Source: Candidatus Kuenenia stuttgartensis (GTDB lineage Bacteria > Planctomycetota > Planctomycetia > Pirellulales > UBA1268). From it: a stretch of 37,926 nucleotides of DNA. Numbering within the stretch: the stretch's first letter is position 1; each line of letters starts with the position of its first letter. The notes below the pieces were generated by a model, which was not told where the DNA came from, ran no database searches, and was given only the letters and a program-made list of their open reading frames with translations. A program made the translations under genes and the position numbers. Location of the stretch: assembly GCA_945860405.1 (NCBI GenBank), contig CAMARC010000005.1:1-37926 (forward strand), in the 5' to 3' direction. Shown piece after piece: positions 14,758-26,870 of this stretch.

Positions 14758-15855
14758 TCACGCGTGATCACCGCCATCGTCCGGGCTATCACCCTTGCCG
14801 GCGAGTTCGTCTCCATGCCCGCCATGCTTCCCCGGGAAGGCCATCGACGCAGCGACGCTCGTGCCGATGAGGCCGACGACGATGAGGAGCGAGAGCCATG
14901 GCGGCACGAGGTGCCCTTCGCCGTGGGCGTCCCAGCCCCACTGATCGGCCAGCCATGTCTGATGGCGGGCCCATTCGGCGATCATCTTCACCCCCACGAA
15001 CACGAGCACGGCCGACAGGCCGTAGTTGAGGAACCGGAACAGGTCCATCACCCCGGCGAGCAGGAAGTAGAGGGCCCGCAGGCCGAGGATCGCGAAGACG
15101 TTCGAGGTGAAGACGATGAAGCGGAAGTATTCGGCATGCTGGTCGACGACGCCGAGGATCGCCGGCACGCTGTCGACCGCGAACAGGACGTCGGTGCTCT
15201 CCACGACGAGGAGGACGAGGAACAGCGGCGTGGCGAAGAGCTTGCCCGCCTCGCGGACGAAGAACCGGTCCCCTTCCTGGTGGTTCGTGACGGGGATCAC
15301 CCGGCGGACGAGCTTGAGGAGGAAATTATCGCCGGGATCGACCTCCTCGTCGCCGAACGAGAGCTTGATGCCGGTGTAGATCAGGAACGCCCCGAACAGC
15401 GGCATCACCCATTGGAACCGCTCGATGAGCTCCGTCCCCAGGAGGACGAACGCCAGGCGCATGATCACCGCGCCGAGGATCCCCCAGAAGAGGACACGGT
15501 ACTGATACTTGAGCGGCACCTTGAAGTAGCCGAACACGACCGCGAACACGAACACGTTGTCCATCGACAACGACCATTCGACGAGGTAGCCGGTGAGGAA
15601 CTCGACCGCGGCATTCTTCCCCAGCCACCACCACACCAGCCCGTTGAAGGAGAGGGCGAGGGCGGCCCAGAAGCAGGTCCAGAAACCGCTTTCGCGGAGC
15701 GACGGCTCGTGGGCCTTGCGGTGGAACACCGTCAGGTCGAGCGTCAGCATGACCACGACGAACGCGGCGAAGGCGGCCCAGTGGCCGAAGTTGATCGGGC
15801 CGACGGCGGCGGACGGGGCTTCGGCCACGGCGAGAATGGGCAACCAGGCGTCCAA
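14758..15855 (-). CDS. TerC/Alx family integral membrane protein
   Basis: TTG start; VVMLTLDLTVFHRKAHEPSLRES, TGYLVEWSLSMDNVFVFAVVFGYFKVP, VESTDVLFAVDSVPAILGV, IVFTSNVFAILGLRALYFLL. Confidence 0.93.
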   Translation of the reverse strand: MDAWLPILAVAEAPSAAVGPINFGHWAAFAAFVVVMLTLDLTVFHRKAHEPSLRESGFWTCFWAALALSFNGLVWWWLGKNAAVEFLTGYLVEWSLSMDNVFVFAVVFGYFKVPLKYQYRVLFWGILGAVIMRLAFVLLGTELIERFQWVMPLFGAFLIYTGIKLSFGDEEVDPGDNFLLKLVRRVIPVTNHQEGDRFFVREAGKLFATPLFLVLLVVESTDVLFAVDSVPAILGVVDQHAEYFRFIVFTSNVFAILGLRALYFLLAGVMDLFRFLNYGLSAVLVFVGVKMIAEWARHQTWLADQWGWDAHGEGHLVPPWLSLLIVVGLIGTSVAASMAFPGKHGGHGDELAGKGDSPDDGGDHA

Positions 15856-22191: not shown

Positions 22192-23637
22192 TCAGACGTG
22201 GAGCGCGGCGGCGGCGGCGCGGGCCGGGTTGCGACGGAGCGCCTCGCGGACCGGGCCGGCGAGAAACTCCTCCACCTGGGCTGACGCCCGTCCGGCCAGC
22301 CCCTGCGACTCCATCGCGGCTTCCAGATCGACAGCCACGAAAAGCGGGTCGGCAGCGAGACGGGCCGCGAGGTCGTTCGGCTTCCCTTCGCGGATCGCCG
22401 CCGTCGTCGCGTGGCTATGAACGCGGAAGGCTTCGTGGAGCTCCTGACGGTCGCCACCGGCCTTCGTCCCCGCCATCAGGATCCGTTCCGCGGCGAGGAA
22501 GGGGAGATAGTTCTCGAGGTTCCGGCGGATCGCCCCCGGGATAACGACGAGGCCACGGGCGATGTTGGCATAGAGCACAAGCTGGGCGTCGGTGGCGAGG
22601 AAGGCCTGCGGGAGAACGAGGCGGCGCGGCGCGGAGTCGTCGAGGGTCCGCTCGAACCACTGCGTGGCTGCGGTCTGCCCGGCCGTCGCGGCCAGGCCCA
22701 TCACGAACCGGCCGAGGCCGCACATCCGCTCGGCCCGCATTGGATTGCGCTTATAGGGCATCGCCGAGGAGCCGACCTGATCCTGCTCGAAGGGCTCCTC
22801 GAGCTCCCCCGAGGCGGCCGCGAGCCGGAGATCGTTGCCGGCCTTATGGGTCGATTCGGCGATGCCGGCGAGGCCCGCCACGATCTGCGAGTCGATCTTC
22901 CGGGTGTAGGTCTGGCCGGTGACGTCGTAGGAGGCGTGAAAGCCGAGCTTCCGCGACACCATCTCGTCGAGGGCACGGACTCGGGCATGATCGCCGTCGA
23001 AGAGCTCGAGGAAGCTCGCCTGGGTGCCGGTCGTTCCCTTCGCCCCACGGGCCCGGAGGAGTTGGCGACGGTGGACGATCTCCTCGAGATCGATGAGCAG
23101 GTCGTGGATCCACAGGCAGATGCGCTTGCCGATCGTGGTCGGCTGCGCCGGCTGGAGGTGGGTGAGCCCGAGGCAGACGATGTCTTTGGTCTCGGCCGCC
23201 TTGGCCGAGAGCGCCTCGATCACCCCGGCGAGCCGGGCAGCGATCAGATCGAGCGAATCGCGCATCAGCATCAAGTCGGTGTTGTCGGTGACAAAAGCGC
23301 TGGTCGCTCCGAGGTGGAGGATCGGCCGGGCCAGCGGCGCCGCATCGCCGTAGGTGTGGAGGTGGGCGAAGACGTCATGCCGCATCTGCTTCTCGTAGGC
23401 CGCCGCCTTGGCGAAGTCGATCGGCTCGAGGTTGGCCCGCAGTTGCGACAGTTGGGCCGGCGTGATCGAGAGCCCGAGTTCGGCCTCGGCCTCGGCCAGC
23501 GCCAGCCACACCTGACGCCAGGTACGGTAGCGGTTGCGATCACTCCACAGCCTGGCCATCTCGGCGGAGGCGTAGCGGGATGCCAACGGATTTTCCCACA
23601 CGTCCCGATGCCCGTCCTGCTGTCCATCCGCGTTCAC
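22192..23637 (-). CDS. purB: Adenylosuccinate lyase
   Basis: WENPLASRYASAEMARLWSDRNRYRTWRQVWLALAEAEAELG; signature GSSAMPYKRNPMRAE; GTG start at 23637 overlapping the holA stop (GTGA). Confidence 0.94.
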   Translation of the reverse strand: MNADGQQDGHRDVWENPLASRYASAEMARLWSDRNRYRTWRQVWLALAEAEAELGLSITPAQLSQLRANLEPIDFAKAAAYEKQMRHDVFAHLHTYGDAAPLARPILHLGATSAFVTDNTDLMLMRDSLDLIAARLAGVIEALSAKAAETKDIVCLGLTHLQPAQPTTIGKRICLWIHDLLIDLEEIVHRRQLLRARGAKGTTGTQASFLELFDGDHARVRALDEMVSRKLGFHASYDVTGQTYTRKIDSQIVAGLAGIAESTHKAGNDLRLAAASGELEEPFEQDQVGSSAMPYKRNPMRAERMCGLGRFVMGLAATAGQTAATQWFERTLDDSAPRRLVLPQAFLATDAQLVLYANIARGLVVIPGAIRRNLENYLPFLAAERILMAGTKAGGDRQELHEAFRVHSHATTAAIREGKPNDLAARLAADPLFVAVDLEAAMESQGLAGRASAQVEEFLAGPVREALRRNPARAAAAALHV

Positions 23638-24809
23638 GTCGGCGTTCTCCTGGTCCCGTTGCCTGTCCTGCTGCCTGTTCGTGGGCCCGATCCACTCGGC
23701 GCTGCCGCCGGGCTCCCCGGCCTGCCCGCCGAGGCATCGATCCCTGGCGTCTGTCGGGCCATCATGCAGATCAACCGCTCCAGAGCCAGCCTCGCTCGCA
23801 GGCCGCGGGAAGCATCCCCTTTGAGCGATCGGTCGAGGTCGGCAAGCCGCTGCGGAAGCTGACGGGCCCGACGGCCGCCGAGTTGCTGGAGCGATTCGCG
23901 GGCTTGGGCAAGCGCCTTGGGCCACGCCGCCACGCCGGCCGACTTGAGCGCCTCGTCGAAGCTGCCGGGGCGCCCCGCGCCGGGGGGGAGCCCGAGGAGC
24001 CGGGCGGCAGCAGCGAGGCGGCGGAGGCTCGTCGCCGCTTGGGCAAACAGCGCGATCGGGTTCTCGCCGTTGGCGAGGAGATCGGCGAGCGCCGAGAGCG
24101 CCTCCGGGGCGTTCCCCGCCGCCGCGGCATCGACCATTCCCCAAGCCGAACGCTCCTGCGCGCTCCCCACCATGTCGTCGATTGCCTCCGGGGGGATCGC
24201 CTTCCCCCCCTTGCCCTGCGCTCCGGCGAGCCGTTGCACAGCCTGATCGATCTGACCGAGTTCGTTGTTGAGGCGTTCGAGGAGACGCTGCGCGGTGGCG
24301 GCCTCGAGCACGCAGCCATGCCGGGCACGGGCCCAGTGCCGCACCCAGACCGCGAGATCGATTTTCGACGGCACGGCCAGGTCGATGACCGCGTGTTGGG
24401 CGGCGAGCGCCTTCGCCAACCGCGTCGTAGCAGGAAAGGTCTTGACGTCGAGGATCACAAGCCCGCGATGGCCGCGGGGGGCGGCGCCGAGGGTCTCGAG
24501 CGTCGCGCGACATTTGGTCACGAACGGATCGGCCGAGCGGACGACCGCCACTCGCGTCGCTCCGGCAAACATCGGCACCGTCGCCGCTTCATCGAAGATG
24601 TCGCGTGGATCCTCGATCGAGTCGCCGTCGAACTCCCGCCACGCCCACGACCGGTCGGCCTCGTCGGGCACCAAGTGCCCGCGGATGAGCCGGAGAAGCT
24701 CACCGGCCAGGAAGGGCTCGTCGCCCACAAGCGCGATCACCGCCGACGGCGGTGGCGACCAGTCATCGGGGGCGCGGAGGATTTCCAGGGCGGAGCGGGA
24801 TTCGGCCAC
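23634..24809 (-). CDS. holA: DNA polymerase III subunit delta
   Basis: VIALVGDEPFLAGELLRLIRGHLVPDEADRSWAWREFDGDS; VPMFAGATRVAVVRSADPFVTK; C-terminal collar region LARARESLQQLGG..., then a low-complexity RTGSRTGNGTRRTPT tail. Confidence 0.85.
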   Translation of the reverse strand: MAESRSALEILRAPDDWSPPPSAVIALVGDEPFLAGELLRLIRGHLVPDEADRSWAWREFDGDSIEDPRDIFDEAATVPMFAGATRVAVVRSADPFVTKCRATLETLGAAPRGHRGLVILDVKTFPATTRLAKALAAQHAVIDLAVPSKIDLAVWVRHWARARHGCVLEAATAQRLLERLNNELGQIDQAVQRLAGAQGKGGKAIPPEAIDDMVGSAQERSAWGMVDAAAAGNAPEALSALADLLANGENPIALFAQAATSLRRLAAAARLLGLPPGAGRPGSFDEALKSAGVAAWPKALAQARESLQQLGGRRARQLPQRLADLDRSLKGDASRGLRARLALERLICMMARQTPGIDASAGRPGSPAAAPSGSGPRTGSRTGNGTRRTPT

Positions 24810-24875: not shown

Positions 24876-24978
24876 CTAGCTTTCCGTGGCAAAAGATACC
24901 CTTGACCTTGTCCGCCGCCCCGCCCAGGCCCGTTGCCTACTAGCTGCCCGTGGAAAAAGTCATCCATGACCTTTTTCC
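24876..24978 (+). repeat. Degenerate ~38-nt direct repeat pair upstream of holA
   Basis: CTAGCTTTCCGTGGCAAAAGATACCCTTGACCTTGTCC (24876-24913) and CTAGCTGCCCGTGGAAAAAGTCATCCATGACCTTTTTCC (24940-24978). Confidence 0.5.
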
Positions 24979-25036
24979 ACTTGGAAAACCTCCGGTTTTC
25001 TCGAGTGCTACGCACTCGCGACCGCCTCGTGCGGTC
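24950..25036. repeat. Phased hairpin array: one long hairpin plus three 17-nt hairpins at 18-nt spacing
   Basis: H1 GTGGAAAAAG-TCATCCATGAC-CTTTTTCCAC (24950-24980); H2 GAAAACC-TCC-GGTTTTC (24984-25000); H3 CGAGTGC-TAC-GCACTCG (25002-25018); H4 GACCGC-CTCGT-GCGGTC (25020-25036). All listed stems are perfect. Confidence 0.85.
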
Positions 25037-25061
25037 GGGCCGTCACTTTATCCAAAGCCTG

Positions 25062-26870
25062 CTAGGGGAGGACCTTCACCCCGCCGAGTTTGCCGACAAC
25101 CCGCGGCATTGCCACGGTGACCGGCTCCGGCGTCGTGCCGCGGCCGATGTTCCCTGCGGCGTCACTCGCCTCGACCCGGATGAAGACCCGAGCCGGTGTT
25201 CCCCGCTCGGGCTGCCAGCGGTATTCGCCCTGCGCTTCCAACCCTTCGGCGATCGTCCCCCACGGGCCGTCGGCACTTGGCGACTGGATCAGCCGGACGC
25301 TCTTGGGAACGAGGATCTGATCGCGGGCCGCCCAGCGGATGAGCACGCCCCCCGGCTCGGTGTCTTTCAGGCGCGTCGCCTCGAGAATCTCGACCTGCGG
25401 GGGCTCGTCGTCGATGCCGATCCATCCTTCCGGCATCTCGCCCGAGCGTGGCCCGCCCCCGGCGTCGGGGAGGTCGGGGACAATCTCGAGACGGAAACCG
25501 TACAGCCCGGCAGCGGGAAGAGTGACTTCGATCGGACTCTGGCCGTCGTCGTCCACGGCGCTGCGCTGCCAGGTGACACCGCCGTCGTTGGTGCTCCACA
25601 GTTCCACGCGCACCGGGATGGTGTCGGGGCGGTCGGATTGCATCTCGTAATCCCAGGTGAATCTCCGGGAGCGGACGATCTGGAGGGGGCGGCCACGGTA
25701 TTCGGTGGGGAGCGCTCGCGCCACCGTCCCCGGTGCCGCAGCCTCGATCGCCGGGGTCGCGGGGGCAAGCGGCGGAGGCGCCGTGGCCCCCACCTCCGGC
25801 CGGCCACCAGAGGGCAGGCCCGCGCGACTGGCTGTCCCGACAGGACGGGCAAGCACGCTGCGGCTGTGGCCGGCTTCAGAAGGCGGGGCGACGGCCGCGG
25901 CCGGCCCCTCGCCGGCCCAACGTCCCGACGTGTCGGCCGCCCATCCCCCCGGGGGCACGGTGGCCACGTCCGAGGATGCCCCGGCCTGAGGCTCCTGCCG
26001 ACTCTCCAGCTGCCGACTCTCCAGTTGGCTCGCCGCGGGCAGGGCAGGGGGGGGCGCTGAAACCACCGCGGAGGATGACTGCCCGGGCAACGCCGGGACA
26101 CCGATCTCCGCCGCGAGCGTGCCCTGCTCGACACCAGGGTCGGCAGCCTCCATCGTGAACTGCTTCACGGTGCGATGCCCGGCGGCATCGCTGATCGCGA
26201 TCCGCACCGTGAGGGCCTCGACCTTCTCGCCTGCCCACCAGATCTCCTCGCCGAGGAGATGCGCCGGGGACTCGCGGGAGAGGATCGCCTCGGCGGCGAT
26301 CTTTTTCCAGGTCGGCTCCGCTTTCGTCTGATACTCCACCACCATCTTCGGGAGGTCGAGCGTGTCGTCAGCGGCCGCGTAGCGACAGACGATCTCGCCG
26401 TCGTTGCCCCGCCACACCCGGGCCGTGACGCGCGGCGCGGCGGCATCGACGAGGACGCGCATGTCGGGCCCCTCGCCCCCGCGCTGTCTCCCCTTGCCAT
26501 CGATCGCCCGAAGTCGAAACCAATACTCCCCGTCGGCCACGGCCCTGTAGACGATCGACCCAGCCTCCGGCCCGGCCTCGCCGGCCTGCTCCCAGGTCGC
26601 CCCGAGATCCTTCGAAGCCTGAAGGAGGACCCGCGCCGCGGCGTGGTCGGCCTGCTGTGACGGCGCTACCTTAAAGGGGATCGCGAAGGTCGTGTTCGTC
26701 GTCCGGACCAGATCGGGAAGCCTCGGGGCCGGAGAAAGCTCCTCCCCCCAGGCGCGTCCCAACAGCCCCAGCAGACAGACCGCCATCAACCCAGGAAGCC
26801 TCCGGCAATGGATGGCTCCACGGCCGTTCCCGGCGACGAACTGGCGAAAGTGTCTGCTGGTCGATCGCAT
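25062..26870 (-). CDS. Secreted hypothetical protein with repeated beta-sandwich-like segments
   Basis: 602 aa; signal-peptide region LMAVCLLGLLGRAWGEE. Recurrent pattern such as VLLQASKDLGATWEQAGEAGPEAGSIVYRAVADGEYWFRLRAIDGKG, ELWSTNDGGVTWQRSAVDDDGQSPIEVTLPAAGLYGFRLEIV, LIQSPSADGPWGTIAEGLEAQGEYRWQPE. Confidence 0.7.
   Translation of the reverse strand: MRSTSRHFRQFVAGNGRGAIHCRRLPGLMAVCLLGLLGRAWGEELSPAPRLPDLVRTTNTTFAIPFKVAPSQQADHAAARVLLQASKDLGATWEQAGEAGPEAGSIVYRAVADGEYWFRLRAIDGKGRQRGGEGPDMRVLVDAAAPRVTARVWRGNDGEIVCRYAAADDTLDLPKMVVEYQTKAEPTWKKIAAEAILSRESPAHLLGEEIWWAGEKVEALTVRIAISDAAGHRTVKQFTMEAADPGVEQGTLAAEIGVPALPGQSSSAVVSAPPPALPAASQLESRQLESRQEPQAGASSDVATVPPGGWAADTSGRWAGEGPAAAVAPPSEAGHSRSVLARPVGTASRAGLPSGGRPEVGATAPPPLAPATPAIEAAAPGTVARALPTEYRGRPLQIVRSRRFTWDYEMQSDRPDTIPVRVELWSTNDGGVTWQRSAVDDDGQSPIEVTLPAAGLYGFRLEIVPDLPDAGGGPRSGEMPEGWIGIDDEPPQVEILEATRLKDTEPGGVLIRWAARDQILVPKSVRLIQSPSADGPWGTIAEGLEAQGEYRWQPERGTPARVFIRVEASDAAGNIGRGTTPEPVTVAMPRVVGKLGGVKVLP
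25995..26024 (-). repeat. In-frame 15-bp perfect tandem duplication (LESRQ x2)
   Basis: CTGCCGACTCTCCAG repeated twice without mismatch inside the 602-aa ORF. Confidence 0.85.

Follow-up and report, generated by a model that had tools for sequence, protein, structure and literature searches.

The hairpins analysed here lie within a 37,926-nucleotide stretch of DNA (the window), between two minus-strand genes (Table 1). When the sequence was re-read, four hairpins were found at the coordinates given by the original prediction, and hairpins 2, 3 and 4 are spaced by exactly 18 nt. The constant 6-5-6 architecture that had been assigned to these three fits the last of them, hairpin 4, with its 6-bp stem, whereas hairpins 2 and 3 in fact have 7-bp stems and a 3-nt loop. 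Single 6-5-6 hairpins are frequent in this GC-rich window (26 observed versus 21.8 expected). A triple in 18-nt phase occurs once, at 24984, and was present in 0 of 200 first-order Markov randomisations of the window, confirming the phasing. Compared with shuffled sequences, the 118-nt element described below folds strongly as RNA (z = -6.7 and -5.2 for the two strands) and as DNA (z = -7.6, plus strand).

The original prediction overlooked a larger repeated unit (24940-25065), in which terminal inverted repeats enclose the array. Alignment of copies together with their flanks reveals that this unit begins and finishes in CTAG; between the two CTAGs is an element of 118 bp (24944-25061), the interior of which is the array. 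Its ends are imperfect 16-bp terminal inverted repeats (CWGCCCGTGGAAAAAG / CAGGCTGTGGATAAAG), and it contains neither a transposase nor coding capacity. On its left lies an older, decayed copy of the same family, and the intact copy inserted into the right-end CTAG of this decayed one. In sister genomes G001, G002, G003 and G006 the decayed copy occupies the orthologous place by itself. At three other loci (L157, L195 and L120), two copies stand head to tail at a spacing of about 123 bp, as if a second element had entered the target duplication of the first, like the decayed and intact pair in the window. A putative further copy elsewhere in the window (15715-15834; 14.4 bits) lacks the element ends and looks like a chance match.

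Table 1 Features of the locus, with their positions in the window.
Feature	Positions	Strand	Sequence or basis
Neighbour with weak similarity to DNA polymerase III delta subunit (holA)	23634-24809	-	PF21694, E 8.7e-5, below the Pfam cut-off
Older decayed copy, same element family	24876-24943	+	Resembles the left end of the intact copy (34 nt, 79% identity)
Left target-site duplication	24940-24943	.	CTAG; single CTAC at the G003 empty site; 4-mer agreement among copies
Left terminal inverted repeat	24944-24959	+	CTGCCCGTGGAAAAAG; conserved across copies; up to 15/16 identical to related IS1182-like ends
Hairpin 1	24950-24980	+	GTGGAAAAAG-N11-CTTTTTCCAC; left-end sequence, then its own inverted copy; folding and covariation
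Hairpin 2	24984-25000	+	GAAAACCTCCGGTTTTC = GAAAACC-TCC-GGTTTTC; sequence and covariation
Hairpin 3	25002-25018	+	CGAGTGCTACGCACTCG = CGAGTGC-TAC-GCACTCG; sequence and covariation
Hairpin 4	25020-25036	+	GACCGCCTCGTGCGGTC = GACCGC-CTCGT-GCGGTC; sequence and covariation
Right terminal inverted repeat	25046-25061	-	CTTTATCCAAAGCCTG on the plus strand; copy alignments, comparison of ends
Right target-site duplication	25062-25065	.	CTAG; CTA (25062-25064) is the TAG stop of the minus-strand neighbour ORF
Neighbour ORF, 602 aa	25062-26870	-	No Pfam match; stop codon is the insertion site

Copies, target sites and distribution

Used as a query, the region recovers ten copies of about 126 bp from its own genome at 90-98% identity (counting the one in the window), besides many partial matches or fragments. 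Two subfamilies differ in their interiors, yet in both most elements are 117-119 bp long: subfamily B, also present in the own genome, has the same ends and hairpin 1 and an equal total length, with other inner palindromes. In L014, L016, L018 and similar copies of subfamily B, a single long palindrome, GACACCCCC...GGGGGTGTC, stands in place of hairpins 2 and 3 of subfamily A. From the alignments, inner palindromes seem to merge or split while the total length stays near 118 bp. A third variant, of 145 bp, carries additional sequence within hairpin 1.

Matches to a covariance model were obtained in 32 of the 36 sampled genomes of family f1 and in 3 of about 160 genomes from other families of the order. 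The suggestion of a palindromic repeat family has been borne out: there are many copies in the same 18-nt phase, with compensatory stem changes, and in all likelihood an enzyme moves them. Most named records that contain the hairpin-1 sequence are planctomycete MAGs; a few bear the names Kuenenia or Verrucomicrobia, which may be misnamings. Plasmid records compared with the region gave short chance matches only, and the core 16-mer was not found in the literature searched for a published description of the repeat. Many contigs terminate inside or at the repeat (C221, C266, C428 and C623 of G005, for example), so the repeat fragments assemblies and hides full copy numbers.

In 53 of 130 copies the element has the same 4-mer on both sides, whereas shuffling gives 25.5 +/- 3.4 (maximum 36 in 2000 shuffles). 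Within one subfamily the identical pairs include CTAA/CTAA and TTAG/TTAG and, because these flank nearly identical elements, the 4 bp belong to the target, which is of the YTAR type. In 77 of the 130 copies the two 4-mers are unequal, and CTGG or CTTG stands at some of the empty sites; hence either the target is less strict than YTAR or duplications have mutated. A C is found two bases to the left of the duplication in 61% of copies, and the right side has no matching preference; insertion may be oriented, since the preference sits on the left flank alone.

Clean empty sites occur in sister species, where most tested sites are empty. These sites are exactly 122 nt shorter (118 bp plus 4 bp); at one locus as many as four species have such a site. 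One locus reads GGTCGCGC-CTGG-CCCCATCG in three genomes, with CTCG in a fourth, compared with GGTCGCGC-CTAG-118-CTAG-CCCCATCG in the own genome. At the window locus, an empty site in G003 reads GTTGCCTC-CTAC-GGGAGG, compared with GTTGCCTA-CTAG-118-CTAG-GGGAGG in the window. Most copies lie at the end of a gene or close to it. Several have the stop codon within the duplication, and at several other copies in the own genome an ORF ends exactly at the element edge (by crude ORF calling). Insertion into C-TAG stop codons, sparing genes, is a simple targeting rule that can be tested. The arrays are insertions with 4-bp target duplications in such positions, which leaves the proposed reading of the 18-nt phase as six codons without support.

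G000 and G005 share three copies that are identical (0/118 differences at the window, 0/118 at L031 and 0/99 at L074), with flanks that differ by 4-8%. The loci concerned are 24940-25065 of the window with L369/L375 of G005, L031/L032, and L074/L102. Other shared copies diverge at or above the flank rate, for example 11/120 versus 4.3%, and 18/115; pooled orthologous copies show 42/1465 differences versus 228/4119 in flanks (summed from the table of copies). One site is occupied by both types: of L033 (G002), L089 (G005) and L093 (G003), the 145-bp type, with an additional hairpin inside hairpin 1, is present in two species and the 118-bp type in the third. Candidate causes of the identical copies and the mixed-type site are independent insertions at a favoured site, exchange between copies, constraint, and effects of MAG assembly, any one of which could account for them.

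A candidate mobilising enzyme

A candidate partner was found by searching relatives for DDE transposases. The own genome contains an element of about 1.49 kb with ends CAGCCCGTGGCCCAAG and CAACCGTGGCCCAAG, each abutted by CTAG, which stands on both outer sides. Its transposase has PF01609 and DUF772 domains, and its best NCBIfam model is IS1182, below the cut-off. We use the name 'IS1182-like' because scores for the best model, NF033551 (195 and 154.5 bits), fall under its NCBIfam cut-off of 270. The own-genome transposase is frameshifted near the N terminus, so, if insertion sequences of this kind move the 118-bp element, past or unassembled copies must have acted. IS1182-like ends in related genera (CAGGCTGTGGAAAAAGTCGTC in G025, CAGGCCGTGGATAAAGTCGTC in G035 and CCGGCTGTGGATAAAGTCGTC in G016) each match the right end of the 118-bp element at 15 of 16 positions, and those of G025 and G035 are preceded by CTAG. 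CTAG is also found on both sides of the IS1182-like loci L343, L345 and L315, and L340, with an intact transposase of 472 aa, has perfect 16-bp terminal inverted repeats, as in IS1182, for which repeats of about 16 bp and a 4-bp duplication are characteristic. A Paracoccus IS1182 element captured by trap plasmids has inverted repeats that agree at 16/16 positions, together with a duplication of 4 bp (PMC3281130).

The insertion-sequence end of the own genome matches the left end of the 118-bp element at 13 of 16 positions only, the best matches being in other genera. In G021, the left end of the 118-bp element (CAGCCCGTGGCCAAAG, L126) is close to the insertion-sequence end of the same genome (CAGCCCGTGGCCCAAG), and the two kinds of end therefore seem to vary together. 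Counting against an IS1182-like partner, an intact transposase was not found in the own genome, nor was a homologue detected in the copy-rich G007 and G015, all of them draft MAGs. Draft MAGs often lose multicopy insertion sequences. A search for an autonomous copy with the exact ends of the 118-bp element, within about 1 Mb of copy-bearing loci, returned composite pairs of separate copies only. Several unpaired ends in G007 proved to be copies with one degraded end, with no longer element found there, and no transposase was found beside a truncated copy in L023.

We consider it highly probable that the array belongs to a non-autonomous transposable element of 118 bp (a MITE), whose insertion duplicated a CTAG that includes the stop codon of the neighbour, and which is moved in trans by what we infer to be an IS1182-like transposase. 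Mobilisation in trans is probable because IS1182-like elements have nearly the same ends and the YTAR target; the enzyme would thus come from insertion sequences whose 16-bp ends match and whose target is the same. Acting in trans, it would move the gene-less element into CTAG, and insertion there would duplicate 4 bp, keeping the TAG stop of the neighbour. The hairpins may help the element spread, either as compact or cruciform DNA fixing the end-to-end distance or by insulating against read-through, and would then act for the spread of the element rather than for the host at each site. This role of the hairpins is the weakest step of the mechanism.

Stem changes and the origin of the array

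Covariation was assessed in 29 diverse copies, with the structure derived from one of them. Stem cells are paired in 95.3% of cases, and 12 of 30 pairs have changed on both sides between genera, the compensatory changes to which the original prediction had looked. Two-sided cells number 56, compared with 16.6 +/- 3.2 after shuffling, a test that related sequences inflate. Sliding the partner by 1 nt, a control that keeps relatedness and favours a structure derived from the set, lowers pairing from 95% to about 50%. In hairpin 3, one pair is changed from AU to GC in 12 of the 29 sequences; in hairpin 4, 5 of 6 pairs are altered on both sides in some sequence. Loops and the near-18-nt spacing are also kept between genera. 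The picture within 35 young subfamily-A copies is different: single-copy changes in stems are not depleted (23 versus 26.4 expected), and broken pairs (29) exceed two-sided changes (10). Selection on structure, as originally proposed, thus finds support between genera, where stems covary and structure is hence retained in the spreading lineage, but not in the changes of individual copies. Most simply, copies that will spread further retain their pairing, whereas at most sites where copies rest it is lost over time. We hold only tentatively that the array is a selected functional part of the transposon (a structure for transposase or host protein, or insulation), with the host partly keeping intact copies and the MITE selected for structure as well as ends.

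Somewhat less likely is a MITE with perfect stems kept by template-switch (quasipalindrome) repair in replication rather than by selection. Even where selection is absent, such repair produces perfect palindromes and changes on both sides of a stem, and the single longer palindrome of about equal length that takes the place of hairpins 2 and 3 in subfamily B is in keeping with it. However, the excess of broken pairs over two-sided changes in young copies indicates that such correction is not fast, and loops and spacing are conserved between genera along with the stems. Such repair could also contribute to the pairing.

A structured host RNA, or a regulatory or terminator element at gene 3' ends that has been copied around the genome, is very improbable. 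The stable fold, the covariation, the position of copies near gene ends (several with a stop codon in the duplication) and the lower divergence of pooled orthologous copies relative to flanks would all suit it; but the Rfam search, bearing on the earlier idea of a known structured RNA, gave no match at gathering score, a single weak terminator-like match is about the chance level, single-copy changes strike stems at the expected frequency, the drift of several orthologous copies equals or exceeds that of their flanks, and the majority of tested sites are empty in sister species. Finally, movement as a single-strand palindromic element by a Y1 (HUH) transposase, as in REPIN/RAYT systems and the RAYT-like enzyme proposed earlier, would suit a palindromic, intergenic repeat that persists over genera, in a family about half of whose genomes have single-copy Y1 transposases, but it is largely refuted and deserves almost no credence, as the Y1 gene is absent from repeat-bearing G000, G007, G010 (95% complete) and G011 (91% complete), several of them copy-rich, the repeat was not found within 1.5 kb of Y1 genes of the family, and inverted ends with co-varying 4-bp duplications are not HUH products.

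Relation to known elements

As judged from sequence comparison, copy alignments and empty sites establish a repeated mobile unit with terminal inverted repeats, a 4-bp YTAR-type duplication, clean empty sites, subfamilies and covarying stems. Dispersed non-coding copies, terminal inverted repeats, target duplications with empty sites, and ends and target in common with an autonomous element, all seen here, are features of a MITE. We propose that Planctomycetes harbour a new family of MITEs, for which an IS1182-like transposase is the probable driver. These planctomycete draft genomes thereby gain a well-delimited mobile element that has been spreading recently, with ends and target known and a likely enzyme, and its presence explains why many of their contigs end in this repeat. 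The covarying array at a near-constant 118 bp also makes a clear case for asking whether small transposons undergo selection for DNA structure between their ends.

The IS1182 family (for example ISPse1 of Paracoccus, PMC3281130) is alike in its 16-bp inverted repeats and 4-bp duplication; it has a DDE transposase with DUF772, and ends of related elements match the MITE ends at up to 15/16 bp. It differs in its length of about 1.5 kb, its transposase gene and the lack of an internal hairpin array. RUP of Streptococcus pneumoniae, thought to be driven by IS630-Spn1, is likewise short and gene-less, with terminal inverted repeats like those of a resident insertion sequence, a fixed short target and many intergenic copies, but has a TA target, an IS630 enzyme, another sequence and a 9-bp terminal inverted repeat (PMC2229807). 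ERIC/IRU, a 127-bp enterobacterial repeat, is similar in size, intergenic and has a strongly folded transcript, but differs in sequence, its 7-bp terminal inverted repeat, its TA ends and its end-to-end pairing rather than an array of separate hairpins (PMC2229807). REP/REPIN sequences with RAYT (GTAG- or CGTC-tagged) are also dispersed palindromes and have been reported in Planctomycetes, but consist of 20-40-bp units with a one-ended tag and an HUH enzyme (PMC3733652), whereas the 118-bp element has inverted ends, a target duplication and, presumably, a DDE enzyme. MITEs as a kind are familiar; what sets this one apart is its covarying inner array of hairpins.
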